This document shows, piece after piece, positions 12,136-33,664 of a stretch of DNA of 64,000 nucleotides. The stretch is from positions 124,001-188,000 of the forward strand of contig NZ_JAFIDC010000001.1 of the NCBI RefSeq assembly GCF_017052655.1, read 5' to 3'. The translations under genes and the position numbers were made by a program. The stretch's first letter is position 1; the number at the start of each line of letters is the position of its first letter. Below the pieces are notes generated by a model, which was not told the DNA's origin, did not search any database, and saw only the letters and a list, made by a program, of their open reading frames with translations. This stretch comes from Acholeplasma equirhinis (GTDB taxonomy: Bacteria > Bacillota_I > Bacilli_A > Acholeplasmatales > Acholeplasmataceae).

Positions 12136-12911
12136 TGAATATAAAAGTATTTATTGCATCCCATAAACTTTATCCAAATGTAGAAAAATATATTGATGAC
12201 AGTTATCAATTTATTCAAACAGGAAAACATGGTAAGCCTGAAATTCCTAATTTTTTAAGTGATGATGGAAAAGACTTAATTTCAGAAAAGAATCCAAATT
12301 ATTCTGAATTAACAGCACTTTATTATATTTGGAAGAAAACTTCTTATGATGTTGTTGGTCTCATTCATTATAGAAGATTATTTAGCAACAAAAGATTCTC
12401 AATTTTTTCATATCAAGGATTAAAGAAGGAAAAAATTGAAACTATTTTATCTTCATATGATGCAATCTTGCCACTGCGTCCTCGCTTAAGAGTTAATATG
12501 AGAACAAATTATCAAAGAAACCATTTTATTAAGGATTTAGACCTTACAAGAGAGATTGTTTCTAATATGTTCCCTGATTACTTAGAAAGTTTTGATCAGT
12601 TCTTAAATTCTAATAGACCATATCTTTATAATATGTTTATTATGAAAAAAGAGCTTTTAAATCAATACTGTGAATTTCTCTTTCCTATTCTTTTTGAACT
12701 TGAGAAACAAGTTGATTTAAAAGCTTATGATGATTATCAAAAAAGATTGTTTGGGTTTATCTCTGAAAGACTCTTTAATGTTTGGGTTTTAAAGGAAAAC
12801 ATTAAAGTCAAAGAAGTACCAGTGATTGAAATCGAAAGAAAACCATATATTGAGTTTATTAAAGGTATTGCACGTAAAATCTTTGGTGCAAATGGAGATG
12901 TCAAAAGATGA
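12135..12911 (+). CDS. DUF4422-type capsular glycosyltransferase
   Basis: 258 residues. The pattern KVFIASHKLYP at the start, then NYSELTALYYIWKK...VVGLIHYRRLF, and a C-terminal SERLFNVWV is characteristic of the DUF4422 family found in capsule and exopolysaccharide loci, thought to be glycosyltransferases. Sugar specificity cannot be read from the sequence; members often sit next to UDP-galactopyranose mutase genes, as here (two genes away), so a galactofuranosyl role is possible but unproven. It overlaps both neighbours by one and four bases. Confidence 0.82.
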   Translation: MNIKVFIASHKLYPNVEKYIDDSYQFIQTGKHGKPEIPNFLSDDGKDLISEKNPNYSELTALYYIWKKTSYDVVGLIHYRRLFSNKRFSIFSYQGLKKEKIETILSSYDAILPLRPRLRVNMRTNYQRNHFIKDLDLTREIVSNMFPDYLESFDQFLNSNRPYLYNMFIMKKELLNQYCEFLFPILFELEKQVDLKAYDDYQKRLFGFISERLFNVWVLKENIKVKEVPVIEIERKPYIEFIKGIARKIFGANGDVKR

Positions 12912-14017: not shown

Positions 14018-14019
14018 TT

Positions 14020-16600: not shown

Positions 16601-16602
16601 CA

Positions 16603-17559
16603 ATGAGAGAATTCCTTAAACGATTTAAATTTATCAGAGATATCTACTACAAACATAAAGAACGCAAGTTTGAAAACTTAAAAAAGAAAAGATCAACAAC
16701 ACCGCATACTTTTATTAATCGAAGTAAAAGTAATGAAAAACTGCTTGTAATTTTAGCAGGGTATAAAGATCGTCTTTTTGATTTAGTCTTTGAACGTGTT
16801 AAAGCATTTTTACCTAAAGATATTGATGTATGTATCGTATCTTCTGGCAAATACCATGAAGGGTTAGCAAAAAGAGCAGAAGTTGAAGGTTATTCATATC
16901 TTTCAACCAAAAGAAATCATATTGGACTTGCATTAAATGTTGCCATTAATCGATTTGAAAAAGCTAAATACATTTACAAAATCGATGAAGATATCTTTTT
17001 AACTAAAGGATTCTTTGAAACTTTATTTGATACATATCAAAAAGTATTAAAAGAAGGTGACTTTACACCAGGTATTGTTGCACCACTGATTCCAATTAAC
17101 GGTTATACACACTTAGAGATTCTAAAAAAGCTTAAACTTGTAGATACCTACACTAAAAAGTTCGAATTGCCTAAATATGCATCAATGCCATACAGAATGA
17201 TTGAAAACAACGATCAAGTTGCAAGATTCTTCTGGGGAGAAGGTGGGTATGTACCTAAACTTGATAAATTAAATGAGATTTTTAAAAAAGATCAATTTAA
17301 AGTCTCTGGTGCACCACACAAATTCTCAATCGGTGCTATTCTTTTCACCAAAGATTTATGGAATGATATGGGTAGGTTTTCAGTTCAAAGAGGTAATGGT
17401 TTAGGGATCGATGAAATTGATCTAAATAAGTATTGTTATTTAGAATCACTACCAGTAGTTGTTTCACATAACCAAGTTGTTGGACATTTCTCATTTGGTA
17501 AACAAACAAAATCAATGTTTGAATATTTAGATAAACATCCTGAAATGTTTAAATTATAA
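16603..17559 (+). CDS. Putative glycosyltransferase (GT-A like, unassigned)
   Basis: 318 residues. A basic N-terminus (about 40 residues rich in K/R) is followed by LLVILAGYKDRLFDLVFERV, VCIVSSGKYH, and AKYIYKIDEDIFLTKGFFE, where D-E-D near residue 125 looks like the metal-binding DxD of a GT-A enzyme. The C-terminal half (GIDEIDLNKYCYLESLPVVV, VGHFSFGKQTKSMFEYLDKHPE) is like capsule-locus proteins of unknown specificity. Its place as last gene of the biosynthetic operon, two bases after wzx and before a terminator, supports a role in the same glycan. The exact family is not recognised. Confidence 0.68.
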   Translation: MREFLKRFKFIRDIYYKHKERKFENLKKKRSTTPHTFINRSKSNEKLLVILAGYKDRLFDLVFERVKAFLPKDIDVCIVSSGKYHEGLAKRAEVEGYSYLSTKRNHIGLALNVAINRFEKAKYIYKIDEDIFLTKGFFETLFDTYQKVLKEGDFTPGIVAPLIPINGYTHLEILKKLKLVDTYTKKFELPKYASMPYRMIENNDQVARFFWGEGGYVPKLDKLNEIFKKDQFKVSGAPHKFSIGAILFTKDLWNDMGRFSVQRGNGLGIDEIDLNKYCYLESLPVVVSHNQVVGHFSFGKQTKSMFEYLDKHPEMFKL

Positions 17560-19118: not shown

Positions 19119-19144
19119 AAAGGTCATTTTTATGACCTTTTTTT
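19119..19144 (+). terminator. Rho-independent terminator after nox
   Basis: AAAGGTCAT / ATGACCTTT stem with a four-T loop and a T run, ten bases after the stop. Confidence 0.92.
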
Positions 19145-19283: not shown

Positions 19284-21656
19284 ATGTATAGTGAAACAAA
19301 GAAACATGTGAGAAGACTAGCAATTATTTTTGGAGTGTTATTACTCTCTTTTTATGTTTTTTATATGTTCTTATTAGATACAACTTTTAGACGTGAAGCG
19401 AATGAAATGGCTCACTATAACCATCAGTTAAAATCAGATACATTTGAACACTTACTAGAAACTTTATATGAAGCATACCAAGAAGATCAGCTTGCTTGGG
19501 ATACGAAGTCGTACACAACTGAACTTAATCAAACAATTCCATTTAATAAATATACAATTTCAAAACTTTCAACTTTATTCTCAGATGAAACAGATGACCA
19601 AGTCGTATTAGCAATTAAAAAGGCTAATCAAAATGAGGTTGCATATAAACTGATGTCACAAGTGCTTTTAGATCAAGGCCTTACGATTAATCAAAGTGAT
19701 TATATTGTTGCATCAACTGGATATATCTTATATGCACTAGATTCAAATCTTTTAGGTTTAAATTTCTTTACCTCACAACTATATCCACTCGATCACTATT
19801 CAGAACTGGATAGTTTAATTGGTAAAAATGAGTCAGCGTACTTTGACTATGTAACATTCGATGATCGCTTTATCTTATCGTTTGATAAAATTGAAGGTCA
19901 ACTTTTATTTATTTCAATCCAACATCAAGCAGATTACCTAGCACCATATCGTCCATTAATTTGGAGTTATTTTGCATTATGTTCCATTTCATTGATTGCC
20001 TTTTTAGTCTTTTCACTTGTTGGTCTTAAGTTTAGATATGATGACGAAAGATTATATGAGAAGCATAAAGATGAACTACCTCAAAATGTCTTAATTTTAG
20101 ATGTTGGTGGACTTGGTCAAATTCGTATGGCAAATCCTAAGTTCTATGAATTAACCGGAATGAAACAAGTTAAGATGATAGAAGATGTGACTAAAGATAA
20201 GGTTTTAATACGTGAACAACTTAAATCTCAAAAATCATTCTTCTTAGGTCTTGAAACAAAAGAAGGTTTAAAAGATTATCGATTTGTAGTTGTTAAGAAG
20301 AAACGCGGGTATTTACTGATTGGTGAGAACGTAGAAAATGTTACATCATTTGAAGGTAAATACAGAAATCTTGCTCTATTCAATCAATTAACACATTTAC
20401 CAAATGAAATGAATCTAAAAGAAATTTTAGATGAAATTGATCGTAAGAAAAAATATTCAATTATTTACTTTGCAGTAGAAGATATTGATAATATTCAAAA
20501 TACGATTGGTCGAGAATATAGTAAACAATTCATTCAAAAATTAAAGGATTTATTCTTATCTGTAGTTATTAAAGATGATATGACACTATTCCATGTTCAT
20601 GATCAACGCTTTGCAATACTGTATCAAAATATCTTGAACTATGATTCAGTTGACTCTTGGGTTCAAGTGACAATCGATAAAATAAATAATTCAGTTTTAC
20701 TTCAAGATTTACCATTTAAAGTTGCCCTAAAAGCGGGTATCATTCACAATGTTGGTAAAGTTATTTCAATGGAATCTAGTCATATTTTAGAAATCATGGA
20801 AATCACCATTGAACGTGTACTCCGTTCAACGGTTTACCATCAAGTAACTTATAATGAAAAATTCTTAGAGTATGTATCCAAGAACCAACAAATGGAAATG
20901 GATTTACAATTAGGGATTGCAAATGATGAATTTGAAATGTTCATGCAACCGCAATACGATATTGAAATTAATAAAACTGTTGGATTTGAGTTACTACTTC
21001 GTTGGAATAATCCTAAATACTTAAAAGATTCACCTGCAAGTTATATTAAGATTGCTGAAAAATCAAATATGATTATTGAATTAGGTAGACTCATCACTGA
21101 AAAAGTATTTGCTATTGCTGAAAGTTTTAATAAAACAGATTTAGAATTCTCATTTAATATTTCACCAAGACAACTTGTACAACCTGGATTTATTCAAGAA
21201 CTTATTGATTTAACGAATAAATACAAGGTTGATCCAAACAAGATTGCAATTGAATTAACTGAAACAATCCTAGTTGTTTCATTTGAACTCATTATTGAAA
21301 AGTTTAAAGCATTAAAACAAATCGGGTTTAAGATTCATTTAGATGACTTTGGTACCGGTTATTCATCGCTTTCATATTTAAAGACTTTACCAGTTGATGT
21401 GATTAAGATTGATAAGAAGTTTATTGATGAGGTAGAAACATCCTTTACATCACGTCAAATCTTAAAAACTTTAACAAGTTTAGGTAAAAACTTAAAACTT
21501 GGTGTTATATTTGAAGGTGTAGAAACAGATAAACAAGTTGAAATTATTAGAAAAGAAGGTGGCACAATCATCCAAGGGTTCGTGGTTGCAAGACCAATGC
21601 CTGTTAAAGATGCTCGTGACTTCTTAAAGAAAAAGAAAGTTGAGTTTGAAAGCTAA
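19284..21656 (+). CDS. Membrane sensor protein with degenerate GGDEF and apparently active EAL (c-di-GMP phosphodiesterase)
   Basis: 790 residues. Layout: membrane helix about 10-30; an extracytoplasmic sensor region about 31-228; second helix about 231-255; a PAS-like stretch (LPQNVLILDVGGLGQIRMANPKFYELTG); a GGDEF-type domain starting at FNQLTHLPNE whose signature is HDQRF near residue 439 instead of GGDEF; then an EAL domain. EAL residues present: E of FELLLRW (about 568), N of NISPRQL, E of ELTE, both D of DDFGTGYSS (about 687), K of VIKIDKKF, E of EGVET and Q of IIQGF. So cyclase activity is unlikely and phosphodiesterase activity likely (inference). It starts 140 bases after a terminator, with AAAGGAAAAAGAGAAAG upstream, and is two bases before the next EAL gene. 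Confidence 0.92.
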   Translation: MYSETKKHVRRLAIIFGVLLLSFYVFYMFLLDTTFRREANEMAHYNHQLKSDTFEHLLETLYEAYQEDQLAWDTKSYTTELNQTIPFNKYTISKLSTLFSDETDDQVVLAIKKANQNEVAYKLMSQVLLDQGLTINQSDYIVASTGYILYALDSNLLGLNFFTSQLYPLDHYSELDSLIGKNESAYFDYVTFDDRFILSFDKIEGQLLFISIQHQADYLAPYRPLIWSYFALCSISLIAFLVFSLVGLKFRYDDERLYEKHKDELPQNVLILDVGGLGQIRMANPKFYELTGMKQVKMIEDVTKDKVLIREQLKSQKSFFLGLETKEGLKDYRFVVVKKKRGYLLIGENVENVTSFEGKYRNLALFNQLTHLPNEMNLKEILDEIDRKKKYSIIYFAVEDIDNIQNTIGREYSKQFIQKLKDLFLSVVIKDDMTLFHVHDQRFAILYQNILNYDSVDSWVQVTIDKINNSVLLQDLPFKVALKAGIIHNVGKVISMESSHILEIMEITIERVLRSTVYHQVTYNEKFLEYVSKNQQMEMDLQLGIANDEFEMFMQPQYDIEINKTVGFELLLRWNNPKYLKDSPASYIKIAEKSNMIIELGRLITEKVFAIAESFNKTDLEFSFNISPRQLVQPGFIQELIDLTNKYKVDPNKIAIELTETILVVSFELIIEKFKALKQIGFKIHLDDFGTGYSSLSYLKTLPVDVIKIDKKFIDEVETSFTSRQILKTLTSLGKNLKLGVIFEGVETDKQVEIIRKEGGTIIQGFVVARPMPVKDARDFLKKKKVEFES

Positions 21657-21658
21657 TT

Positions 21659-23044
21659 ATGGAAATATTCTTAACGATATTAGTCACTTTAATCTTAATC
21701 GGACTCATCATTGGATTATACTTTGTTTTAAAACATGAATTACGTAAATATCGCGATGAAAAATTGTTAGTCTCTGATGAGGTTGTACCTTTATCAACAT
21801 TAACAAATCTTGTTGATCGTATGATTAAACGTAATACAAAAAAAGCAAAGCCTTTTACTTTAATGTTAATTGACTTAGATCAGTATCAAGATATTGTAGA
21901 TGCTTTTAATGAAGAAGAAGAGCGTCTTATTATGCAATATGTTTCAAATCATATTAAAACTGCATTACCTGAAGAATCCGTTATTTCTCAAGGTGTTAAA
22001 CCTGATCAATTCTATATATTTATTCCAGATAGTTTTGATCATTCGAATATATTAAATTTAGCAAAACATATTAAAAGAGAATCTCAACGTAAGGTGAGTA
22101 TTTTAGATGGTGTTGAAATTAAAAAGACTGTTTCTATTGGGATTGCAACATTCCCACTGCATGGTAATACGAAAGACTTATTATTCCAAGCATTAGATAT
22201 TGCGATGTACATCGTTAAGAAAAACGGTGGAAATGGTATTAAGTATTACAGTGAAGAACTTTCACAAGGTAAAGAATATCTCGATTTATATCATGAAATC
22301 AGAGAAGCGATTGAGAAAGAAGAATTTATTTATTTCTACCAACCAATCGTTTCAACATCAGATACAAAAGATATTTATGGTGTTGAAGCATTACTGCGTT
22401 GGCAACATCCAAAAAGAGGCTTACTTGCACCACAATCATTCATTGGGCTTGCTGAACAGTCAGGAGAACTGGATGCAATTGGTATTTGGGGTGTTGAACA
22501 AGCATTACTCTTATTAACAGACCTTTCACAGTTATATCATATGCATAATTTGGTTGTTAATATTAACGTATCACCGCGTCAGATTCTAAATGAAGAAACT
22601 TTTACAATCTTCCAAAGACTGATTCTAAAACATCGTGCAAAACCTGAGATGGTTGCAATTGAAATTCCAGATTTCTCTACATATAAAAATAATGAAACAT
22701 TTATGAGAAACTTAATTAAGATCAAAACACTTGGTTTCCAAATTGCAATTGACCTATCAACAACAGATTATGATGTTTTAGATTTAGTTGAAAGATTTAA
22801 GATTGATATGATTAAGCTTAATCGTGATTTCTTTAAATTAGAAGAAAATTATAATAAACGTAAGTACATTCAAATGTTAATAGATTTTGTAAAGGCAAAA
22901 GAGTTAAAACTGGTTGCGGAAGGTGTCGAAACAGAGGCACAACTCCAAGAATTGTATACTAAAGGTGTGGGTTACGCACAAGGGTATTTCATTGCTAAAC
23001 CTCTCGACCAAACTCAATTATCGGCTTTCTTAACACAAAAATAG
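21659..23044 (+). CDS. Membrane-anchored GGDEF-EAL protein with both active sites degenerate
   Basis: 461 residues. One N-terminal helix (about 2-24), then a GGDEF-type domain (TLMLIDLDQYQDIVDAFNEEE; signature replaced by KPDQF near residue 114) and an EAL domain (VEALLRW near 243, NINVSPRQ, MIKLNRDF, AEGVETEAQ, YAQGYF). In the EAL domain ELTE is EIPD and the key DDFGTG is IDLSTTD, so the second metal-binding aspartate is gone; hydrolysis of c-di-GMP is therefore doubtful and a binding or scaffold role with the upstream active partner is more likely (inference). It is translationally next to that gene (two-base gap) and lies 70 bases before a c-di-GMP riboswitch. Confidence 0.9.
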   Translation: MEIFLTILVTLILIGLIIGLYFVLKHELRKYRDEKLLVSDEVVPLSTLTNLVDRMIKRNTKKAKPFTLMLIDLDQYQDIVDAFNEEEERLIMQYVSNHIKTALPEESVISQGVKPDQFYIFIPDSFDHSNILNLAKHIKRESQRKVSILDGVEIKKTVSIGIATFPLHGNTKDLLFQALDIAMYIVKKNGGNGIKYYSEELSQGKEYLDLYHEIREAIEKEEFIYFYQPIVSTSDTKDIYGVEALLRWQHPKRGLLAPQSFIGLAEQSGELDAIGIWGVEQALLLLTDLSQLYHMHNLVVNINVSPRQILNEETFTIFQRLILKHRAKPEMVAIEIPDFSTYKNNETFMRNLIKIKTLGFQIAIDLSTTDYDVLDLVERFKIDMIKLNRDFFKLEENYNKRKYIQMLIDFVKAKELKLVAEGVETEAQLQELYTKGVGYAQGYFIAKPLDQTQLSAFLTQK

Positions 23045-23072
23045 ACATTGTAAATATTCATAATCATTTCTA

Positions 23073-23100
23073 TTGACTATTAAAAAAAGTTTGGTAAAAT
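23073..23100 (+). promoter_or_regulatory. Promoter of the c-di-GMP-controlled surface operon
   Basis: TTGACT (23073-23078) and TAAAAT (23095-23100) with 16 bases between and a TG one base before the -10. Transcription would begin just before the riboswitch at 23117. Confidence 0.75.
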
Positions 23101-23116
23101 AGCAGTATACGAAAAA

Positions 23117-23179
23117 GGCAAAACTAGAGAAATCTAGCGACGCAAAACTATAGGACCTGTCAAATGGTAGCCAGTTGCC
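23117..23179 (+). ncRNA. Cyclic di-GMP-I (GEMM-I) riboswitch aptamer, first copy
   Basis: All hallmark parts are visible: P1 strands GGCAA (23117-23121) and UUGCC (23175-23179); P2 hairpin CUAGA-GAAA-UCUAG (23124-23137) with a GNRA tetraloop; the conserved GACGCAAAACU linker and the P3 arm CUAUAGGACC...GGUAG with the receptor-like side that docks the tetraloop; then the conserved GCCAG. The aptamer binds c-di-GMP between the helices. Its P1 3' strand is also the 5' arm of a terminator, so ligand binding should prevent termination (an ON switch); that direction is inferred from the overlap. Confidence 0.94.
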
Positions 23180-23213
23180 AACTAATTATGTGGCAATTGG
23201 CTTTTTATTTTTT
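23169..23213 (+). terminator. Riboswitch expression platform: intrinsic terminator
   Basis: AGCCAGTTGCCA (23169-23180) pairs with TGGCAATTGGCT (23191-23202, one G-T pair), followed by a T-rich tract. The 5' arm includes the aptamer's P1 3' strand, so aptamer and terminator are mutually exclusive. Confidence 0.93.
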
Positions 23214-23226
23214 CAAGGAGAAAACC

Positions 23227-23970
23227 ATGGCGTTAAGTAAAGTATGGGGCATTGGAAAAACAGTAAGAAATGCCACTAAATTCTCCAAGTTAATATTCCT
23301 ATTCATACCGTTATTTGGATTCTTATCTGTAACGATGGGTGTTGTATCATTCTATGGACAATACACAGGGGACATGTCGGTAGTCGTTGATCAATTCAGT
23401 GATTCCTCAATTAGAATCGCAGAAGATCCGTCATTCGACAATGCAAGAACAGTTCTAAGATATCCAGGTATGAATTTTGTTAACCAAGCATCTTATGAAG
23501 GTATCATGGCTTTCCATTACAATAATGTTTTGAAAACCAATGGCTATTATCTTCCAGATGTAAGGGATAACGATCGAGAAGTGGTTGCATTCACATTCTA
23601 CTTAAAAAACATGAATGAGGCAGCTACAATCAATAGGGTCAATTATAAGATTGTCTTTGCAGAGAAAACAAGACACATTGAAGAACACTTAAGAATCATG
23701 GTGGTTATCGATGGTGTTGCCGATGTCTACGAATATCAATCTTATCGAATCGAAGGTGTTCAATCACTCTCATTTGCAAGCCAAGACGTTGCAGTTGATG
23801 GTAATATCTATCAATTACAAGCACAATCAGTTGTCAAAGTCTCAGTCTTCATTTGGATTGATGGTTACCTAGAAGATTATTTAAAGAGTATTGGTAAGTA
23901 CACCGAACAAGATTTAATCGCTGGCAGACTAAAACTTCAAATGCTCTTCTCAATTAATGATGAGGCGTAA
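23227..23970 (+). CDS. Membrane-anchored surface-operon protein of unknown family (first gene under the riboswitch)
   Basis: 247 residues. A basic N-terminus and one long hydrophobic segment (about 19-45, LIFLFIPLFGFLSVTMGVVSF) precede an extracytoplasmic domain. Unlike the other secreted proteins of the operon it lacks V-Y-A-W-F, so it may stay membrane-anchored. Its C-terminus has VSVFIWIDGYLEDYLKSI...LKLQMLF, parallel to the I-S-x-W-x-E-G-W-D...AIL segment in the next two proteins, so the three look homologous at that end. The start at 23227 follows CAAGGAG; an in-frame ATG at 23164 lies inside the riboswitch and is rejected. A basal or anchoring subunit of a fibre is possible, by analogy only. 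Confidence 0.75.
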   Translation: MALSKVWGIGKTVRNATKFSKLIFLFIPLFGFLSVTMGVVSFYGQYTGDMSVVVDQFSDSSIRIAEDPSFDNARTVLRYPGMNFVNQASYEGIMAFHYNNVLKTNGYYLPDVRDNDREVVAFTFYLKNMNEAATINRVNYKIVFAEKTRHIEEHLRIMVVIDGVADVYEYQSYRIEGVQSLSFASQDVAVDGNIYQLQAQSVVKVSVFIWIDGYLEDYLKSIGKYTEQDLIAGRLKLQMLFSINDEA

Positions 23971-23972
23971 AT

Positions 23973-24911
23973 ATGTTAAAGAAAATCTATTCTGTACTGT
24001 TTGCACTGACATTAATTGCGATCACATTGACAACCTCAGTCTATGCGTGGTTTGCAACATCAAAAACTGCACTTGTAGATGGGATTGAATTAGGGGTAGG
24101 AGAAGATGACGACTTATGGTTAAGCTTAGATGGTATTAACTATCATAAAAGCATAACAAATGAGATGTTAGTTGAGTATGTTGGAACACAACGAAAACTT
24201 GCAAGTATTACCTCACAAAATGGAAAAGATTTCTTCTTAGGTCCGGTATTACTTGAAACAAGAGCAATTCCTAAGGTAGACTATCTCTCATTTGATGTCT
24301 ACTTCAAAGTTGTTACCAATAATCCAAATGTGGATGCACATCATAAATATGTCTATCTTGCAGATCGCACGAAACCGACATATGAACTTGCATCAAATGC
24401 TCCAGGAACCTTTGTTACATCAAGGGGAAAGAACTGGATTAATCCACTGGGATTTGATGATGGTGACATATATGTCACACCAGGCGAAAATCGCTTGTAT
24501 TACGCCCACAATGCTGTTAGAATAGCATCATATAATGAAGCAGAAAACTTATCCTTCATCTATGATGTCTCTGAAAATGAAGCACGTGGATTTGGTAAAC
24601 CATTCGGTGCAATTGACTTCTACTATAGAATGTTAGGTGTCAGAATGGAACCACCAGAAGCACCACAAAACATGATTTACAAGTTAACTGAATTTTCTAA
24701 ACTTCAAAATGATATTGCAATTGATAAAACAAGTTTAGTATCTGAGGTAAGTTTAGTAAATGAAGTTGAAGGTATTTATGAATACCGAGGTCGAACTAAA
24801 ATCTCAATCTGGTTAGAAGGTTGGGATGCTGATTGTTACGATGCAATCTTAGATGATCCGATGTGGATTCAATTAAGATTCAAAGCAGCAAGATTTGATG
24901 ATTCATTATAG
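23973..24911 (+). CDS. Secreted protein with SipW-type signal sequence (TasA/camelysin-like)
   Basis: 312 residues. The N-terminus KKIYSVLFALTLIAITLTTSVYAWFATS has the form of signal sequences cut by SipW-type peptidases (hydrophobic core, then (V/T)YA(W/Y)F). After it comes an extracellular beta-rich domain ending in KISIWLEGWDADCYDAILDD...IQLRFKA, a motif shared with the next gene. In Bacillus such proteins (TasA, camelysin) form matrix fibres. Homology here rests on the signal type and genomic partners, not on clear overall similarity. It starts two bases after the previous stop; GAGG inside that gene could be its ribosome binding site. Confidence 0.78.
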   Translation: MLKKIYSVLFALTLIAITLTTSVYAWFATSKTALVDGIELGVGEDDDLWLSLDGINYHKSITNEMLVEYVGTQRKLASITSQNGKDFFLGPVLLETRAIPKVDYLSFDVYFKVVTNNPNVDAHHKYVYLADRTKPTYELASNAPGTFVTSRGKNWINPLGFDDGDIYVTPGENRLYYAHNAVRIASYNEAENLSFIYDVSENEARGFGKPFGAIDFYYRMLGVRMEPPEAPQNMIYKLTEFSKLQNDIAIDKTSLVSEVSLVNEVEGIYEYRGRTKISIWLEGWDADCYDAILDDPMWIQLRFKAARFDDSL

Positions 24912-24989
24912 GTTATAAAAGGTTAAAAGCCGAATAACAAGAAAACTAAAATATAAATAAAAAAATATATCTCGAGGAGAGGAACAAAT

Positions 24990-25895
24990 ATGAAAGGTTT
25001 AACAACAAAATTTGCTTTATCAGTACTATCATTAGTACTAACAGGCGTTGCGCTATCAGTTGGCGTATATGCATGGTTTACAATTAACAACACTGCTTCA
25101 GTTGATCAATTCCAAGCTGAAGTACAAACAGGGGAAGGTTTCTATGTATCTACTAATGGTACTGCATGGAAAAATACCATTACTAATGCTGACTTAGCTG
25201 CTGCGTTATCAAGTGTTACATTCGAAGCAATCACTACAACAAATGGTTATACAATGGAAAAATTAGATGGTGCACCTGCATCTGCTACATCATTCATCAA
25301 ATTTGATTTATTCTTTGTAGGTTCAACTACTTTAAGTGATATTACATTAACATCAATTTCAATCGCTTCACCTGCTGCAACTTCATGGATTCCAGGTCAA
25401 GCTGTTGCTGGTACAAGATCTGCTTCAGATGCAAATGCTGTAATTACTGAATATGCTTCTAATGCTGCACGTGTAAGTATTATTGACTTAGGCGATGTTG
25501 CAACTGTTACTATCTTCGAACAAGAAGATGGTGTTGATGGTAACTCACTAGGTATGGGTGCTTGGGGTAACAACGAAGCTGTATTATTCTATAACGCTAT
25601 TAATACAACAGGTATAATTTCACAAGGAGTTTTTGAAGCTGCTGAAGCTTTATACCCTACAACAATTGAAACAACAAATGTTCCAGTTGATGTTGCGACA
25701 TTATACGAACAAGAAGACGCTGCATGGTTTGAGGATTTAACAGTAGGTTCTGCAATTACTGGTACAATCGGTGAAGATTTTAAAGTAGGTAAGATTTCAG
25801 TTAGAGTTTGGGTTGAAGGTTGGGATCAAGAAGCATTCAACGCAATCTTATCTGGTACAATTCAAGTAAGCTTAAGCTTCGCTGGTACAGTTTAA
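24990..25895 (+). CDS. Secreted, probable major subunit with SipW-type signal sequence (TasA-like)
   Basis: 301 residues. Signal sequence ...LSLVLTGVALSVGVYAWFTINNTAS followed by an Ala/Thr/Ser/Val-rich, low-charge domain (many AAT, TSIT, ATVT blocks) and the shared C-terminal KISVRVWVEGWDQEAFNAILSGTIQVSLSF. Composition, the strongest ribosome binding site of the operon (CGAGGAGAGG), a 78-base own leader, and a stem-loop immediately after the gene all suggest the most abundant, structural subunit (inference). It should be exported by Sec and cut by one of the two SipW-like peptidases encoded downstream. Polymerisation into fibres is a prediction. Confidence 0.8.
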   Translation: MKGLTTKFALSVLSLVLTGVALSVGVYAWFTINNTASVDQFQAEVQTGEGFYVSTNGTAWKNTITNADLAAALSSVTFEAITTTNGYTMEKLDGAPASATSFIKFDLFFVGSTTLSDITLTSISIASPAATSWIPGQAVAGTRSASDANAVITEYASNAARVSIIDLGDVATVTIFEQEDGVDGNSLGMGAWGNNEAVLFYNAINTTGIISQGVFEAAEALYPTTIETTNVPVDVATLYEQEDAAWFEDLTVGSAITGTIGEDFKVGKISVRVWVEGWDQEAFNAILSGTIQVSLSFAGTV

Positions 25896-25910
25896 TTTTT
25901 GACAAATTGA

Positions 25911-25958
25911 TAAGACTAGAAACCTTGTAAATTTTACAGGGTTTCTTTCATAGTCTTA
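25911..25958 (+). promoter_or_regulatory. Long stem-loop after the major subunit gene (partial terminator or mRNA stabiliser)
   Basis: Nested inverted repeats TAAGACTA...TAGTCTTA, AAACC...GGTTT and TGTAAA...TTTACA form a long hairpin with only a weak T tract. Its place between a probable abundant subunit and the processing genes fits attenuation or 3' stabilisation giving unequal expression. A TATAAT at 25974-25979 could also restart transcription. Confidence 0.65.
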
Positions 25959-26005
25959 TAGCATTTTAGAACATATAATATATATATTATAAATCGGAGC
26001 AAAAC

Positions 26006-26704
26006 ATGGCAAAATCAAATAACAAACTCAATAAAACATTAAGCATTATCGGGAATTCAATATTTTATTTACTCTTACTCGTTTTGCTCCTTTTCTCAAT
26101 AACTAATATTAGCGTACAGTCTCAAAAAGATATACCTAATTTATTTGGAAAAGGATTCGTTTCAATTCTATCCAGTTCGATGGATGGGACTGAACCCGAT
26201 TCATTCCCTAAAGGTTCACTTGCATTTATCGATGTCTTAGATGAAAAAGGTAAAGCATCAGTCAACCCGGGTGACATTGTTGTATTCTTTGACCCAACAC
26301 TTAAAATTCATATTATCCACCGTGTTGTTCATGTAAGTGGTGACATCATTACAACACAAGGTGATGTGAATGCTGAACTTTACGGCGGATTTAAAGGTGA
26401 TAATTATAATCCTGACATGCAATTGGAAAGTTTTAATCGTAGTGAAATCATTGGACGATATACAGGATCAATTGCGGGATTAGGCGATACAATCCAATCA
26501 TTAAGATCATCAGATGGATTCTTACTGTGGATTGTCTTACCACTCTTAATCCTATTCGCTTTCGAAATCGTTGTACTAGTTAGAACAATTCTAAAACATA
26601 ACAAAGCTAAACTTGAACAAAAGCATGAACAAGAAAAAGAATTATTAAAACAACAATTATTAGAAGAATTAAAAAAGCAACAAGCTGAAGCAAATCAAAA
26701 ATAA
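26006..26704 (+). CDS. SipW-like (ER-type) signal peptidase I, first copy
   Basis: 232 residues. N-terminal helix (about 15-35), then the catalytic serine in SILSSSMDGTEP (about residue 57) and a histidine in IHIIHRVVH (about 102) where bacterial-type enzymes have lysine; this Ser-His dyad is the mark of the SipW/ER type. GDVNAE and GRYTGSIAGLG are further family blocks. A second helix near the C-terminus (LLWIVLPLLILFAFEIVVLV) and a Lys/Glu/Gln coiled tail follow. The enzyme would cleave the V-Y-A-W-F signal sequences of the neighbouring secreted proteins at the outer membrane face. CGGAGC precedes the ATG. Confidence 0.92.
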   Translation: MAKSNNKLNKTLSIIGNSIFYLLLLVLLLFSITNISVQSQKDIPNLFGKGFVSILSSSMDGTEPDSFPKGSLAFIDVLDEKGKASVNPGDIVVFFDPTLKIHIIHRVVHVSGDIITTQGDVNAELYGGFKGDNYNPDMQLESFNRSEIIGRYTGSIAGLGDTIQSLRSSDGFLLWIVLPLLILFAFEIVVLVRTILKHNKAKLEQKHEQEKELLKQQLLEELKKQQAEANQK

Positions 26705-26728
26705 CTAATCTAAGTGAGGCATTAATTC

Positions 26729-28282
26729 ATGAGTGAATTTGCAACCTGGTATATAGAGTTCATACAAACGTTATTCGAACATATTGGTGAAATCATTGCA
26801 AACTTCTTTGCAGCGATTGTCCAAATTTTCTGGTCAACCCCAATTAGCTATGTTGACTCTTTTGCAGTAGCCTCAGTTAACTTTACTTTATTTGACTGGA
26901 TCATCGGAACATTTATCTTAATGGTTAACTTTGTCTTTGTTGTATCACTTGCGTATTTCTTATATGTTATTGCAAGAAGATACATTAGATTTGTTAAAAG
27001 AGAAGTTTCCAAAGATGATTTATTAATGGAGATTGCAGATTTAAATCAAAAACTTATCGATTTAACAGATGAAAAGAATGCAATTCTTACCCTTAAATCA
27101 AGCGACTTAGGTATGCCAATGAATAGACGTTCTGTTCAAGGTACATTAAATAAACTTGCCGAAGAGGAAGAAGAACAAAAAGAAAATCAAGATCAAGGTC
27201 GATTCACAAAACTTATTTCAGTTGACCAAACATATCACTTTAGTGTCTTACAAACAAACATGACAGATAGTGATATGATTGGATTAAATCAATTAGTTGA
27301 TAGATTCATTAAATTTGCAGCATCACAATTAAAATTATTTTACAATCCAAAAATTGTATCAACCTTCTTCGCAGGTATGGCATCATCTAAGACATTAATC
27401 TTAGAAGGTATCTCTGGTACCGGTAAAACATCCTTACCATATGCGATGGGTAAATTCTTCAATAATGATACATCAATTATTTCAGTTCAACCGTCATGGC
27501 GAGATCGTTCAGAAATGATTGGTTACCTTAATGAATTTACCAAGAAGTTTAATGAAACAGACTTCTTAAAATCAATCTACGAAGCAACATATCGAACAGA
27601 TTTAAACTTTATTGTCTTAGATGAAATGAACTTAGCACGTGTTGAATATTACTTTGCAGATTTCTTATCCGTACTTGAAATGCCAAATCCTCAAGAATGG
27701 TTAATTGATATTACACCAGATACAATTCCTGGTGACCCAATTCACCTTCATGAAGGTAAACTCTTGTTACCACAAAATATTTGGTTCGTAGGTACAGCAA
27801 ACCGAGATGACTCAACGTTTGCGATTACCGATAAAGTGTATGACCGTGCTGCATCAATCGAGTTATCAATTAAAGCAGATTACATTGATGCACCATTTAC
27901 TGAATCCATTCACATGACATATGACTATATCGAAGGATTATTTAAACAAGCTTGGAAAGATTATCCAATCTCACAAAAATCCCTAGAGAACTTAGCTAAA
28001 TTGGATAAATTCATAGCGGAAAACTTCCAAATTACATTTGGTAACCGTATCATGAAACAAATCCAAAGTTTCGTTCCTGTCTTTATTGCATGTGGTCAAT
28101 CAGAAATTGATGGTTTAGACTATATTGTTACTAGAAAAGTTTTAAGAAAGTTTGAATTCTTAAACTTACCATTCCTAAGAAAAGAATTAGATGATTTACT
28201 TGCAATAATTGAAAAACTCTTCGGTAAGGGTTCATTCCCTGAAGCGAGAGCAATGATTGAAAACTACAAAAAACAAACATAA
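26729..28282 (+). CDS. Membrane-anchored McrB-like AAA+ ATPase
   Basis: 517 residues. An amphipathic N-terminus, a membrane helix about 54-83 (FDWIIGTFILMVNFVFVVSLAYFLYVIA) and a short coiled coil (about 93-115) precede a AAA+ domain of the McrB/GTPase-subclade kind: Walker A GISGTGKT near residue 227-234, VQPSWRDRSEMIGYLN, Walker B FIVLDEMNLARVEYYFADFL near 296, and sensor VGTANRDDSTF near 353. McrB itself is a GTP-driven translocase of restriction systems and is not membrane-bound; here no DNA-binding domain or McrC nuclease is seen, so a role in assembling or remodelling the surface structure is more likely (inference). GTP or ATP use cannot be told. It lies between a SipW-like peptidase and its DUF2357-like partner. 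Confidence 0.85.
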   Translation: MSEFATWYIEFIQTLFEHIGEIIANFFAAIVQIFWSTPISYVDSFAVASVNFTLFDWIIGTFILMVNFVFVVSLAYFLYVIARRYIRFVKREVSKDDLLMEIADLNQKLIDLTDEKNAILTLKSSDLGMPMNRRSVQGTLNKLAEEEEEQKENQDQGRFTKLISVDQTYHFSVLQTNMTDSDMIGLNQLVDRFIKFAASQLKLFYNPKIVSTFFAGMASSKTLILEGISGTGKTSLPYAMGKFFNNDTSIISVQPSWRDRSEMIGYLNEFTKKFNETDFLKSIYEATYRTDLNFIVLDEMNLARVEYYFADFLSVLEMPNPQEWLIDITPDTIPGDPIHLHEGKLLLPQNIWFVGTANRDDSTFAITDKVYDRAASIELSIKADYIDAPFTESIHMTYDYIEGLFKQAWKDYPISQKSLENLAKLDKFIAENFQITFGNRIMKQIQSFVPVFIACGQSEIDGLDYIVTRKVLRKFEFLNLPFLRKELDDLLAIIEKLFGKGSFPEARAMIENYKKQT

Positions 28283-28293
28283 GGTGAAAGCAT

Positions 28294-30075
28294 TTGAAAC
28301 AGAGTTACGATTTAGATTTATTCTATAACATGTTAATATCGTATCTTGATGAATTAGAGACCGACACAGATTTTCCTGCTTACTTTTATCAAGGACTTTA
28401 TGATGGACAGAATAAACTAAAGAGTTTAACCATTCATGAGACTAAAAAGTTTGATGATTATTGGATCTCTGCGATTGAAGCGTATTACCCATCAATTGAA
28501 AAAATTGCTAGAAATTATAAATCAGCATTAAAAGTTGAAGAAGAAGTTGTGATCATTGAAAAAGCTAGAAAGACAAACTCAAGAACAGTTCGTCACTTAG
28601 CAGCAAATTCACAATTCTTAAAAGAAACAGAAAATGATAAAAATCAAAAGGAACTTAAGCCTACTAAACTCTTAGTTCAACAAGCAGATATTGAATATGG
28701 AATTTATGAAAATAGATTTGTTGCAACTTTGATTACTAGATTATCAAAATTCGTTTCAGACCGTGTCAAAATCTTAAAAGAAGATATTAACACTAAAAAG
28801 TATCACCAAGTCGATAATAATGTTGAAATTAAACTAGACAACTCAGTATACAAGATTAATATTGCACTTGAAGAAATTGAAACAATTGAAGAAGGGGATG
28901 TTCAAGATCAAAATAGACTCATCCTTCGACATGCAGAAGACTTAAACAAAAGAATCACAAGTTTGACAAATTCTGTCTTCATGAAGACTTTGAAAAGCTA
29001 TAAACCGGTTAAAGCACCAATTGTTAAAACACAAATTATTTTAAAGAATGTTGACTACAAAAACTGTTATATGTTATGGCAATATCTTGACCAATATAAT
29101 AGTTTAGGTTATGAACTGATAAGAGATGAGAAACAAAAAAGATTCTCTGAAGCATACCGCAAGCATTTAAATCAAAATTCATTATTCAGCTTTGCAACAT
29201 TAATGTTCCATGACAAGTTTAGAGAAAGCAATGCTAAACTTGACATGAGACGATTTAAAATTAAAAAAGCTGAAGCGATTAAGATTAATCCAGGAGACTT
29301 AGTCACTGATCCAAAAGAATACGAACTCGAAGATACGAAGATAAATGAGTACTACTTAAACAAAAACAAGCAAATCTTCAAAAAAATCATCGATGGTTAC
29401 ATGGAAACAGAAGACAAGTATGAAATAGCGCTTAAAAAGGCTTTAAAAGACACGATTGAAATTACAAACAGTCTGTATAAATCATACTTTGAAGTTGATG
29501 CGGATGAGGATGTCTTCGCTAGACTCATCCAACATACGGACCCTAAAGAAGATTTAGCATCTGCTGACCAAAAGTTCAAGATTGCACAACTTGTACGTGA
29601 AATTAAAGAACAAGATTTAAAACAAGCAATTGCACTTGAAAAGAAATGGTATCAAGCAGTTCTAAAATATCAAAAAGATTTCTTCAAATGGGTACAAGAA
29701 GAAAATGCTGACTTCTTAAAGAAAGAAGCAGATAAGGTTAAAAAGACTCACAATCTATATCTAAAACTTGAACGTAAGAAGATGTTAGAAGACTTAAGAC
29801 TTCAAGTTGCTAAAGATAATGAAACGTTAACAGCATTAAAGAATAAATATCGTGATGCATATAAGAAAGAATCAGCAAGAATTGCTGAACAACAAAGACT
29901 TAAAGCTGAACGTGAACGTGAGCGTCTAAGAAAACAAAGAGATGCTGCGAAAGCTAAACTTGATAAACAAAAACAACGTGAACAAACTAAACAAGCTGCG
30001 TTTGTTAAGAAACAAAAAGAGAAGATTCGTACTTCTCATCAAAAAGCAATGGAGCAATTAAAAAAAGGTAAATGA
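28294..30075 (+). CDS. DUF2357-like partner of the AAA+ protein, with long charged coiled-coil tail
   Basis: 593 residues. The stretch PTKLLVQQADIEYGIYENRFVATLITRLSKFV (about 128-160) resembles the family that accompanies McrB-like ATPases (pattern R-P-x-x-L-L-V...Y-D-T-x-E-N-R-F-V-x-x-L-L). The PD-(D/E)xK nuclease part usual for McrC/DUF2357 proteins is not recognisable. Residues about 475-593 are an almost uninterrupted, highly charged helix (KAERERERLRKQRDAAKAKL), without membrane segments, so it is cytoplasmic. The start is a TTG preceded by AAGGTGA. The stop overlaps the second SipW-like gene (ATGA). It probably works with the AAA+ ATPase; function otherwise unknown. Confidence 0.7.
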   Translation: MKQSYDLDLFYNMLISYLDELETDTDFPAYFYQGLYDGQNKLKSLTIHETKKFDDYWISAIEAYYPSIEKIARNYKSALKVEEEVVIIEKARKTNSRTVRHLAANSQFLKETENDKNQKELKPTKLLVQQADIEYGIYENRFVATLITRLSKFVSDRVKILKEDINTKKYHQVDNNVEIKLDNSVYKINIALEEIETIEEGDVQDQNRLILRHAEDLNKRITSLTNSVFMKTLKSYKPVKAPIVKTQIILKNVDYKNCYMLWQYLDQYNSLGYELIRDEKQKRFSEAYRKHLNQNSLFSFATLMFHDKFRESNAKLDMRRFKIKKAEAIKINPGDLVTDPKEYELEDTKINEYYLNKNKQIFKKIIDGYMETEDKYEIALKKALKDTIEITNSLYKSYFEVDADEDVFARLIQHTDPKEDLASADQKFKIAQLVREIKEQDLKQAIALEKKWYQAVLKYQKDFFKWVQEENADFLKKEADKVKKTHNLYLKLERKKMLEDLRLQVAKDNETLTALKNKYRDAYKKESARIAEQQRLKAERERERLRKQRDAAKAKLDKQKQREQTKQAAFVKKQKEKIRTSHQKAMEQLKKGK

Positions 30076-30683
30076 AAAAGACCATAAACATCCTAAGTAC
30101 CATCTTAGTGACATTGATCTTAATCTTCACCATACTATTTATCGCAATATCCGCAATGAGTTTTATATCAAGAAAACCTGTTGCAGTATTCGGATATAGT
30201 TATGGGGTCGTCGAAACTAATTCGATGTATCCAATGATTGTTCCAGGTGATTTTGTTTTAATTCAAAAACAATCATTTAGTGAGTATAACACTGGTGATG
30301 TGATTGCATATACTTCAGTTGAAAATGTAACAATCATCCACCAAATCATCGCGAAGGTTAGTTATGGTGTTGAAACAAAAGGTATTAACAATTCAAATTC
30401 AGATTTAGGAAAAGAAGGATTCATCACAGAAGATCGAATCTTAGGTAAAGTTGTTAACTATGGCGGTCATGAAATTGGTGCTATCTTAATTAATAACAGA
30501 GTCACTTTAATTACAATCAGTGTCATAATCATTGGAACTGGATTTGTTATTCAACTCATTAGTTTAGTTAAACAAATGATTGATAAACAAAAAGTTCAAA
30601 ATGAAATTGATATAGATGCACTTAAAAAAGAAATTGAAAAAGAATTAGAAGAACAAAAAGAAACAGACAAAAACATAGATTAA
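30072..30683 (+). CDS. SipW-like (ER-type) signal peptidase I, second copy
   Basis: 203 residues. N-terminal helix (about 5-30), catalytic serine in VVETNSMYPMIVPGDFVLI (about residue 50), histidine in NVTIIHQIIAKV (about 89) replacing the lysine of the bacterial type, then TKGINNSNSD and EDRILGKVVNYGG, and a second helix (VTLITISVIIIGTGFVIQLI) with an acidic/basic tail. It is clearly divergent from the copy at 26006, so the two may serve different substrates: the proteins before and after the internal riboswitch. The coding region ends two bases before that riboswitch. Confidence 0.92.
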   Translation: MKKTINILSTILVTLILIFTILFIAISAMSFISRKPVAVFGYSYGVVETNSMYPMIVPGDFVLIQKQSFSEYNTGDVIAYTSVENVTIIHQIIAKVSYGVETKGINNSNSDLGKEGFITEDRILGKVVNYGGHEIGAILINNRVTLITISVIIIGTGFVIQLISLVKQMIDKQKVQNEIDIDALKKEIEKELEEQKETDKNID

Positions 30684-30685
30684 AA

Positions 30686-30752
30686 GGCAAACTTAGGGTA
30701 ACTTAAGGACGCAAAGCTATAGGGTCTTAATACAAAAAGACAGCCAGTTGCA
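30686..30752 (+). ncRNA. Cyclic di-GMP-I (GEMM-I) riboswitch aptamer, second copy, inside the operon
   Basis: P1 strands GGCAA (30686-30690) and UUGC (30748-30751); P2 hairpin CUUAGG-GUAA-CUUAAG (30692-30707) with GNRA loop; conserved GGACGCAAAGCU; P3 arm GUCUU/AAGAC and GCU/AGC; then the conserved GCCAG. It fits the GEMM-I consensus better than the first copy in the GACGCAAAGC core. No terminator follows: the Shine-Dalgarno AAAGGA (30758-30763) and ATG (30772) come directly after, so control of translation is more likely than termination (inference). It separates the second signal peptidase from two further secreted proteins. Confidence 0.93.
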
Positions 30753-30771
30753 TCAGTAAAGGAAAACATTC

Positions 30772-31386
30772 ATGAAAATGATTAGAAAGACATTGATCTT
30801 AATCTTATTCGTAATGATTTCAGTTGCTTCGATGGTAACTGGTGTTTTTGCTTGGTTTATTGGTTCACCTGGTGGTTTTGTAGAACCAATTAGTGGTGAT
30901 CTAGAAACTGATATGACAATTGATATCCAAATTGACCAATCAGAAATCTTCTTAGGTGATAGAGTTCGTGATTTAGTTTATATTACAGATGAAGATTTTC
31001 AAACTGTTGGTTTTGACTTCTATGGCTACGGAGCAATCCTAGCAGTAAATCTTCAAAATTCTGGTGATCAAGCGATGAATGCTAAACTTGGGTTATATGC
31101 TCAATCTGCTCCAGATTATGGAATTTATGCTGGTGTTAATTCAGGATTCAAATATTTAGTTGTAGATAGCCCGTTTAGTGTAACACCGCTCATGTGGGGA
31201 TTCCAACAAACATCTAATATGTTTGATGCAATGAATGCTCATAATGCAAATGGTGTATTAGTACCTGCGAATTCATCAAGTACAGCGTATATCATTATCT
31301 GGGGTTACTATGATGGTTTACCAAGTGGGCAAAAAGATATTTATCATGCAGTCGTATATAGAATGAGAATGACATTATTTGGTTAA
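30772..31386 (+). CDS. Small secreted protein with SipW-type signal sequence, downstream of the second riboswitch
   Basis: 204 residues. Signal sequence TLILILFVMISVASMVTGVFAWFIGSPGG followed by a compact beta-rich domain (YGAILAVNLQNSGDQAMNAKLGLYA...NSSSTAYIIIWGYYDGLPSG). The L-x-N-x-G-D-x-A-M-N-A segment is like the Ig-like domain of camelysin/TasA proteins, where strands follow N-x-G-(D/S). A minor or tip subunit of the same surface structure is plausible. It has AAAGGA as ribosome binding site just behind the riboswitch and is 13 bases before the repeat protein. Confidence 0.75.
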   Translation: MKMIRKTLILILFVMISVASMVTGVFAWFIGSPGGFVEPISGDLETDMTIDIQIDQSEIFLGDRVRDLVYITDEDFQTVGFDFYGYGAILAVNLQNSGDQAMNAKLGLYAQSAPDYGIYAGVNSGFKYLVVDSPFSVTPLMWGFQQTSNMFDAMNAHNANGVLVPANSSSTAYIIIWGYYDGLPSGQKDIYHAVVYRMRMTLFG

Positions 31387-31399
31387 AAGAGGTTAATTT

Positions 31400-33625
31400 A
31401 TGTTTAGAAAATTAGGCATACTAATTTTATCACTAATACTCACCTTATCCACAGCGATAGGTGTTTATGCTTGGATGACTAAACCAACAGCAGGTATTGA
31501 CCTTAATGTGAGAACATCAGAATTGTTTTCTGCAAGTTCAGAAATTAAAATTGGTAATACGTCTATCAACTCGTTACACAGTTACTATAATGCTGCCGAT
31601 TATACAATTAATATTTCAGCTGCAAACATTACTGCAAATACAACATCTGGAGTCATGCCGATTACTATAGCAGTAGCAATTGACGCATATAAAAACATAA
31701 AAGTTAGAATTAAAATAGTTGAATATTGGACAAACAACTCAAATGTTTCAATTACAAGACCGAACGTATTCACATGGAATTATCACTCAAGTTACAATGA
31801 TGGTGTTGATTCTGAAGGCTATTTTTATTACAGTGAAATGATTGTGAAGGATACATCAGATATCGTGAATGTGATTGATTCTGCGAATGTGAATACAACA
31901 AATATTCCTGCAGGTTCTACTGTTCGTCTTTCTGTAATTGTTTCTGCACTTCAAGGTAATAGAGAAGATATTTGGGAAAATGAAAACCATAAAATAAAAT
32001 CATTTACTTTAGGACAAAATGCCAATAACCAAACCGTAAATGTCATCTTTAATGGTGTTGCAAATTCAGTTTACGGTCGTGGTGTTTATCTTGAGTTCAA
32101 AAACGTATCGAATAAGATTGGATTCCTTTGGCATAGTAGAGGTGGTATTACAAGACAATTAAGCCTACCTCAAGGAACTTATAATGTTTCAATTAATTTA
32201 GTTAATCACCTAGATTTCACAGTAACCAGAAATGGTAATGTGATTACAGTAAATATTCAATATGGTGATCCAGGAGAATGGGGATATGAAGACGTATTAT
32301 TTGCACCATCTATGATTGCCGTATGGGAAACAGGCGTGACATATCCTTCAGGTGCGATTGTATATTATCGTGATGAAGACGGTAATGGCGTAAACGCAGG
32401 ATACTATTCTGCAATTCAAAGTAACACGAATTCTCATCCAGACTCAGCAGCTTGGAACTGGAGAAAAATTTCACCATTCTACCAATCAGGTACGGTATAT
32501 CCTCCTGGTACGATTGTATTCTATCAAGGGGCATTTTATATTTCAAAAGCAACTAATAGTGTCGCTCCAACAGAATTATGGGCATGGGAAAGACTTGATA
32601 GAGCGTTTAATGGTGGTAAAACCTACAAATTATACGATATTGTATTCCATAAGTATGGTGAAGAAACACGTTGGTTTATGGCAACAGGCAATGTGTCAAC
32701 CGGCCAAACTGAGCCAAGAGATTATCAAGCATTCCGTCAATTAGGATTTAATTATTCTGCATTTAATAAACAAAAATATAGAGCAGGCGAATATGTAAAA
32801 CATAATGATGCCTTCTATGTAGCAAATATTGATAATACTTATGCAGACCCAGCAGCAAATACGACTCAAGTATGGAGAAAACTTGGCCTTGTATGGGGAA
32901 GTAATCAAGTCAGTTATCCTCAAAATACAATTGTTTCTTACAATAATAACTACTATATAGCGACTTCAACCATTTCACAATGGGGTTCAACACCAGGTAG
33001 TGGTAGTTGGCAACTCATTACACATAGAGGTGATTGGTTAAATACAACAACAAACTATAATAGATATCAATCAGTAATATATGGTGGAAATAGATATTTC
33101 TGGAATCAAACAGGTAGTGCACCAGTTGGACAAGCACCAGATGTAACAGTTGGTTGGTGGTTGATTGGTGAAGCATGGCATTATAAAAATACATATGCAC
33201 AACATGCATTAGTATTCCATAATGGAGACTATTGGGCTTTAAGATCTGGAACATCAACAAACCAAGAACCAGGTGTTTCTGGTGCTTGGCAATTATTATC
33301 AGATTTTTGGGCATTAACAGGTACATATTTTAATAACCAATATACACGTAGTGTGATCAATTACAACGGTTCATATTTTATGTGGACAGGAGCAAATAAT
33401 TCGAACTCAACAACAGCTCCAGGAACTGCAATAAATGGTTGGAAAGAACTAACTGAAGTTTGGAAATGGTATAACAACTATGATGTTGGCGAAAAAGTTA
33501 TTTATGATGGTGCATTCTGGGAAGCATTGAAAGTTCCATATGAAAATGGTGAAGCAATAGTTCCAGGAAGTGATTTCACATACTGGAAAGAGTATCCAAT
33601 TATTTGGGACCCTAATAGAACTTAA
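31400..33625 (+). CDS. Large secreted repeat protein with about nine tandem aromatic-rich (carbohydrate-binding-like) modules
   Basis: 741 residues. Signal sequence ILILSLILTLSTAIGVYAWMTKP (SipW type with W-M instead of W-F), an N-terminal beta-rich region to about residue 300, then about nine repeats of roughly 48 residues from residue 308 to the end. Each follows the pattern W-x(4-6)-Y-x(3)-(G/x)-x-(I/V)-V-x-Y/H-x(1-3)-G-x-(F/Y)-Y/W-x-A...P...W-(R/Q/K)-x-(L/I), close to the small CBM5/12-type chitin/cellulose-binding modules with exposed Trp/Tyr. A role as adhesin to glycans is inferred. No membrane anchor is seen. It is the last gene of the operon, before a strong bidirectional terminator. 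Confidence 0.8.
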   Translation: MFRKLGILILSLILTLSTAIGVYAWMTKPTAGIDLNVRTSELFSASSEIKIGNTSINSLHSYYNAADYTINISAANITANTTSGVMPITIAVAIDAYKNIKVRIKIVEYWTNNSNVSITRPNVFTWNYHSSYNDGVDSEGYFYYSEMIVKDTSDIVNVIDSANVNTTNIPAGSTVRLSVIVSALQGNREDIWENENHKIKSFTLGQNANNQTVNVIFNGVANSVYGRGVYLEFKNVSNKIGFLWHSRGGITRQLSLPQGTYNVSINLVNHLDFTVTRNGNVITVNIQYGDPGEWGYEDVLFAPSMIAVWETGVTYPSGAIVYYRDEDGNGVNAGYYSAIQSNTNSHPDSAAWNWRKISPFYQSGTVYPPGTIVFYQGAFYISKATNSVAPTELWAWERLDRAFNGGKTYKLYDIVFHKYGEETRWFMATGNVSTGQTEPRDYQAFRQLGFNYSAFNKQKYRAGEYVKHNDAFYVANIDNTYADPAANTTQVWRKLGLVWGSNQVSYPQNTIVSYNNNYYIATSTISQWGSTPGSGSWQLITHRGDWLNTTTNYNRYQSVIYGGNRYFWNQTGSAPVGQAPDVTVGWWLIGEAWHYKNTYAQHALVFHNGDYWALRSGTSTNQEPGVSGAWQLLSDFWALTGTYFNNQYTRSVINYNGSYFMWTGANNSNSTTAPGTAINGWKELTEVWKWYNNYDVGEKVIYDGAFWEALKVPYENGEAIVPGSDFTYWKEYPIIWDPNRT

Positions 33626-33631
33626 TATGAA

Positions 33632-33664
33632 AAAGGTACAACGCAAGTTGTACCTTTATTTTTT
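33632..33664. terminator. Bidirectional terminator between the surface operon and mscS
   Basis: AAAGGTACAAC - GCAA - GTTGTACCTTT stem with A and T tracts on the two sides; serves the convergent genes on both strands. Confidence 0.92.

Follow-up and report, generated by a model that had tools for sequence, protein, structure and literature searches.

What are a McrB-like AAA+ ATPase and its DUF2357 partner doing in the middle of a probably c-di-GMP-controlled set of exported proteins and signal peptidases? The block in question occupies positions 19284-33625 of the window, by which we mean the whole 64,000-nucleotide stretch of Acholeplasma equirhinis DNA analyzed here, from a genome of 1.45 Mb. 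Every gene is on the + strand, several gene gaps are only a few bases or are overlaps, and terminator-like hairpins stand at both edges (19119-19140 and 33632-33657), the closing one being an 11-pair hairpin on both strands with a T tail. Rfam, Pfam, and NCBIfam searches of the window located every part named in the original prediction at its coordinates. We read the locus as a c-di-GMP-activated, SipW-processed surface-fiber system in which an AAA+ platform would act in assembly or gating, and give this reading a probability of roughly two in three. Its regulatory and fiber parts are well supported, the exported proteins would form the fibers, and co-occurrence is the one tie between the AAA+/DUF2357 pair and the fiber subunits.

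Adjacency of the AAA+, DUF2357, and SipW-type genes had been expected to be conserved, and it holds in relatives, exported proteins included. A search of 60 relatives found DUF2357 homologues in 36/61 genomes, and 26 of the relatives' loci share a single gene order, designated type A: EAL1-EAL2-ANC-TASa-TASb-SIP1-AAA-DUF2357-SIP2, followed by exported proteins/adhesin. In a second arrangement, type B, a giant surface protein of ~2000 amino acids (e.g., in L060 and L066) comes first, then a GGDEF-EAL protein that is weak or degenerate, the AAA+ protein, and the DUF2357 protein, and the peptidases are absent; the one surface protein tested has 13 repeats of the cadherin-like family PF12733. A tree built from 101 AAA+ sequences places type B as a single clade (SH-aLRT 98) nested inside type A, and L060 was assigned to it by gene content and tree position, despite a weak SIP match. 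Scanning named genomes, we recovered the type A order in records of Acholeplasma, Peloplasma, Paracholeplasma, Anaeroplasma, Izemoplasma, Erysipelotrichaceae, Clostridia, and Christensenellaceae, with several clostridial loci including the EAL pair; single taxon labels may be wrong, because the records include many metagenome-assembled genomes. A lack of any conserved neighborhood, which would count against the prediction, was looked for, and the block, in many cases together with the EAL pair, instead recurs from Acholeplasmatales to Christensenellaceae. The idea that the system is special to wall-less cells did not survive, such a restriction being ruled out by the Clostridia and Christensenellaceae records. 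The AAA+ is the most conserved part, with 78-80% identity to the nearest four relatives and ~48-61% beyond; the exported proteins share ~25-40% identity beyond the genus.

The block opens with two genes predicted to encode c-di-GMP turnover proteins. Both proteins do have EAL and GGDEF domains, but only EAL1 has the catalytic residues. EAL1 (19284..21656; Pfam EAL, 2.6e-58) combines a transmembrane (TM) sensor, a degenerate GGDEF domain, and a predicted catalytic EAL domain that holds the active-site set E/N/E/DD/K/E/Q, with DDFG present in 36/36 homologues. EAL2 (21659..23044; Pfam EAL, 2.4e-53), likewise a TM protein with a degenerate GGDEF domain, lacks the loop-6 DD, the second Asp being gone in 33/36 homologues. 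Because the catalytic set is kept in the one and the DD lost in the other, EAL1 is probably a phosphodiesterase and EAL2, a putative pseudo-phosphodiesterase, is probably a receptor or scaffold; the motif loss rules out EAL2 as a second active phosphodiesterase. With 10 GGDEF matches in the genome, synthesis of c-di-GMP in this organism is plausible.

Both of the expected GEMM-I riboswitches are present on the + strand, and their covariance-model scores exceed the Rfam gathering scores. Riboswitch 1 (23107..23182) matches the c-di-GMP-I family RF01051 at 63.5 bits (gathering score, 35). Directly 5' of it lies a possible promoter (23073..23100, + strand; TTGACT-16-TAAAAT, with TG before the -10), a consensus match of a kind no commoner here than in shuffled sequences. 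The 3' end of the aptamer is also the 5' arm, AGCCAGTTGCCA, of a terminator (23170..23214, + strand) that reads AGCCAGTTGCCA...TGGCAATTGGCT and then TTTTATTTT. When the 5' arm of a terminator overlaps the aptamer, ligand binding prevents termination, which is the standard platform of an ON switch. Since the terminator competes with the aptamer before ANC, c-di-GMP should turn the operon on. Riboswitch 2 (30677..30756) belongs to the c-di-GMP-I (GGC) family RF03167, which it matches at 60.2 bits (gathering score, 59). In the window it has no terminator and no clear expression platform, and an ATG follows 16 nucleotides downstream; in Acholeplasma species, too, this element is without a terminator and stands 12-17 nucleotides ahead of the ATG. 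Given these two features, it probably acts on translation, raising or lowering it.

Control of the locus by c-di-GMP riboswitches is conserved. The relatives search gave 97 RF01051 matches, with 34/61 genomes positive, and a riboswitch is present in 22/26 type A loci versus 0/14 type B loci; the type A loci without one (L047, L051, L057, and L069) are all cut by contig ends. Excluding the window's locus, type A loci contain 48 riboswitches, which stand alone or in tandem arrays of up to four, and always either before ANC or where SIP2 adjoins the exported gene that follows it. A covariance model made from the relatives' riboswitches and run on 80 named loci found full-length copies in 43/80, with 62/73 copies at the same two junctions, clostridial ones included. 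An intrinsic terminator overlapping the aptamer accompanies 31/33 riboswitches before ANC, 12/17 at the second junction, and 67/73 in the named-locus set, versus 3.3, 0.7, and 8.7 expected, respectively (dinucleotide shuffles for the first of these sets). The longest array, at L056:3354-3805, has four tandem c-di-GMP-I riboswitches before ANC, each with a terminator-like partner, and L053 and L064 have three.

Within the A. equirhinis genome, all five riboswitches stand before SipW-type or similar small exported proteins: two are in the window, and the others have their genes at L151:5872 and 6487, at L151:17963 and 18574 (where there is also a short peptidase-like gene, at L151:19250), and at L150:7148-7639. 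Outside type A loci, own genome included, 22/42 riboswitches precede a SipW-like signal versus 42/227 control open reading frames (ORFs), an enrichment that is only modest because the motif is loose. No paper on such riboswitches in Acholeplasma turned up in our literature search.

All five of the predicted exported or anchored proteins were found. ANC (23227..23970; TM 22-40), whose start was set at 23227 because a longer listed ORF (start 23164) begins within riboswitch 1, is a membrane-anchored exported protein and the operon's first gene product; its orthologues come first in the block at 20 relatives' loci, and it may be an anchor or initiator. The remaining four carry SipW-type signals: TASa (23973..24911; VYAWF), with an invariant AW and a C-terminal W-x-EGWD in its alignment, TASb (24990..25895; VYAWF), TASc (30772..31386; VFAWF), of TasA-like size, and CBMP (31400..33625; VYAWM), a repeat protein and putative adhesin. 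A SipW-like motif behind a hydrophobic segment occurs in 20/21 sequences for TASa, 26/27 for TASb, 12/12 for TASc, and 6/6 for CBMP, against the background of 42/227 control ORFs. The two Ser-His signal peptidases also proved to be there. SIP1 (26006..26704; NF046067, 1e-15) and SIP2 (30072..30683; TIGR02228, 61.8 bits, cutoff 51.85) are both above the TIGR02228 cutoff and score as archaeal/SipW-type peptidases, and Ser and His are conserved in 86/88 and 71/71 sequences, respectively.

The AAA+ protein (26729..28282) has the Walker A motif GISGTGKT and a GTAN-x-DDS motif in which N358-x-D360 is invariant in 27/27 homologues; the NxxD GTPase motif is absent from it. TM helices lie before residue 82 in the window protein and before residue 100 in 37/37 full-length homologues. 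After the TM region a charged heptad-like stretch is visible in the alignment, and the FtsB Pfam model gave no match to the protein. Its profile matches Escherichia coli McrB (6hz4; E, 0.0015), so that the membrane-anchored McrB-like ATPase of the original prediction is borne out. The DUF2357-like protein is there as well (28294..30075; PF09823, 3.6e-10), with a K/E-rich C terminus. Pfam detects the domain in 15/27 of its homologues, and over 40 homologues the C-terminal 150 amino acids are ~51% K/R/E/Q and no TM segment was found. Its likeness to the McrC N-domain is drawn from Pfam, as comparison with PDB sequences yielded only coiled-helix lookalikes (apolipoproteins, E of 0.05 and up). We also observed related AAA+ genes paired ~2 kb apart (G020:C1:908517-912910, G047:C20, G201:C1, G236:C18, and G308:C2 and C4) and separate AAA+ subfamilies of ~610 and ~900 amino acids.

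The original prediction knew of no described system in which such parts are joined, but the link between signal peptidases and a McrBC-like pair has been published under the name CoCoPALM. A single paragraph of Bell et al. (eLife 2024, PMC11090510) names this clade, defers it to a later publication, and gives as its features an NxD McrB-like AAA+ with an FtsB-like TM and coiled-coil fusion, association with the signal-peptidase family, and a coiled coil on the McrC homologue. The AAA+/DUF2357 pair fits CoCoPALM in these respects: it has an NxD AAA+ with an N-terminal TM region, a DUF2357 partner, and adjacent signal-peptidase-family proteins, with SIP1 on one side and SIP2 on the other both in the window and in the majority of type A loci. 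To what that paragraph describes, this locus adds likely substrates, c-di-GMP riboswitches, the EAL pair, and a distribution.

Whether the exported proteins are fiber subunits depends on how their predicted folds are read. The fiber or TasA-like part of the original prediction stood insofar as TASb and TASc have pilin- and TasA-like predicted folds, but the matches are weak and the family models are silent: no TasA/camelysin family match was found for TASa, TASb, and TASc in NCBIfam or for TASa and TASb in Pfam, and the TASb and TASc profiles have no PDB relative by sequence. AlphaFold2 models reach pLDDT values of ~76 (75.6 for TASb and 76.5 for TASc). For TASc, Foldseek ranks TasA (5of1; E, 2.4e-3) first among 350,542 chains, and on realignment TasA has a VIA Z of 5.4, tied with unrelated beta-sandwiches and toxin domains. 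The VIA realignment list of TASb is led by FimA (Z, 5.8), CfaB (5.1), and the TasA fiber (5.0), with CooA, archaeal threads, and CanA among the further matches. We treat these fold claims as weak, since the structure-search Z values are under 6; that the matches converge on donor-strand subunits is suggestive without amounting to proof. Such scores would also suit monomeric surface or matrix proteins, for instance carbohydrate binders, that merely use SipW-type export. CBMP is similar to a protein of the same genome with seven CBM_5_12 repeats (blastp, 5e-12), its own Pfam CBM_5_12 match being only 0.25, and repeats of this CBM5/12 type in the homologue point the same way. However, what TASb matches are mostly polymerizing donor-strand subunits, and several paralogous TAS subunits within one operon recall pili, so we rate monomers as unlikely, if a serious alternative. 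Fiber formation by the TAS proteins, suggested by their signals and predicted folds, is the reading that we prefer, with ANC as the putative anchor and CBMP as the putative adhesin.

The pair itself could have a quite different role, as its McrB/McrC ancestry suggests: an anti-phage module, acting by type IV restriction or abortive infection, that is co-expressed with the fibers and, for example, guards fibers used as phage receptors. PADLOC assigns the AAA+ to the phage-defense candidate family PDC-M26A (8.5e-40), for which reason we keep defense as a rival, and the sister clade, CoCoNuT, is predicted to be a defense system (PMC11090510). Yet Pfam searches of the two proteins and their neighbors detected no nuclease, HEPN, or methylase domain, nor did they detect a nuclease domain in any of the 27 DUF2357 homologues, whereas CoCoNuTs without an active McrC nuclease are, in that paper's account of them, always encoded beside a HEPN or other nuclease (PMC11090510). 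Moreover, the pair is membrane anchored, its place between two signal peptidases is kept across a broad range of taxa, and what the peptidase-less type B has in their stead is a giant surface protein with a degenerate EAL protein. Defense is in our view improbable, and the chance insertion of an ordinary restriction system, the case posed against the original prediction, is ruled out by an order conserved across families together with the missing nuclease domains. A little less probable again is a c-di-GMP- or stress-responsive machine for membrane remodeling or shape that shares only its signal with the fiber genes. The TM region of all 37 AAA+ homologues would suit such a machine, as would the FtsB-like TM and coiled-coil architecture described for CoCoPALM (PMC11090510), but in almost all type A loci the two genes lie inside the fiber operon, flanked by peptidases, and the system is also found in records of walled lineages.

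Under the fiber-system reading, EAL1 would hydrolyze c-di-GMP and so keep the locus off, and EAL2, which would not hydrolyze it, may serve as a receptor. At high c-di-GMP, riboswitch 1 would fold and reclaim the terminator's 5' arm, letting RNA polymerase enter ANC-TASa-TASb-SIP1-AAA-DUF2357-SIP2; riboswitch 2 would control TASc and the repeat adhesin CBMP separately, probably at translation. The signals and folds lead us to predict that SIP1 and SIP2 cut at the Y/F-A-W signals and that the three TAS proteins polymerize on ANC by donor-strand exchange of the TasA/pilin type, with CBMP being adhesive. At the membrane, the anchored AAA+ ring may drive or gate the release and assembly of subunits, with its McrC-like partner stimulating it, and the pair would not cut nucleic acid.

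To our knowledge, SipW/TasA fibers have been described without an energy-coupled machine. As in tapA-sipW-tasA of Bacillus subtilis and sipW-bsaA of Clostridium perfringens, a dedicated SipW-type peptidase accompanies exported subunits, which in those systems are beta-rich and form extracellular polymers (PMC9674648, PMC7395162), TasA assembling through donor-strand exchange (PMC9674648). Those operons are under SinR or BsaRS control rather than c-di-GMP riboswitches, and the passages of the two papers that describe them report no AAA+/DUF2357 pair (PMC9674648, PMC7395162). Unlike those fiber subunits, the TAS proteins escape the TasA/camelysin family models. The riboswitches resemble GEMM-I elements generally in passing the gathering scores and in their ON-type terminator overlap, and go beyond the usual in numbering up to five copies over two junctions of one fiber operon and in forming a riboswitch regulon of exported proteins here. 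With McrBC and CoCoNuT the pair shares a McrB-like AAA+ and a McrC-like DUF2357 partner, NxD being common to CoCoNuTs; it differs in its membrane anchor, in the lack of any nuclease or methylase found, and in sitting inside a secretion operon.

Taken more broadly, and with somewhat more doubt than confidence, we propose that Bacillota and Mycoplasmatota have a new class of fiber-biogenesis machine: a membrane-anchored McrB-like AAA+ ring with a McrC-like activator would power or gate the assembly of SipW-processed donor-strand fibers, and c-di-GMP would switch all of it on through single or tandem riboswitches. The locus provides CoCoPALM, uncharacterized and known by name only, with a regulator, with likely substrates, and with a function that can be put to the test. 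If the proposal is true, the AAA+ of a restriction enzyme has been repurposed for secretion or assembly, and c-di-GMP signaling is aimed at surface fibers in wall-less bacteria. The question is directly testable, since Acholeplasma species can be cultured.

Other surface-related genes were noted in this genome. A capsule/exopolysaccharide-type cluster occupies window positions 7416-17559, its end lying ~1.7 kb upstream of the fiber locus; it includes Wzz, a CpsD-like ATPase, CpsB/CapC, glycosyltransferases, and UDP-galactopyranose-mutase-like and flippase-like proteins. At L151:4075-8382 there is a second riboswitch-controlled pair, consisting of a small exported protein and a 631-amino-acid protein with seven CBM5/12 stretches, and a GGDEF protein is encoded divergently upstream. 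A third riboswitch locus, at L151:17890-19819, encodes two small exported proteins (SFSYW and SYAYW) and a short signal-peptidase-like protein, and resembles a minimal sipW-tasA operon.
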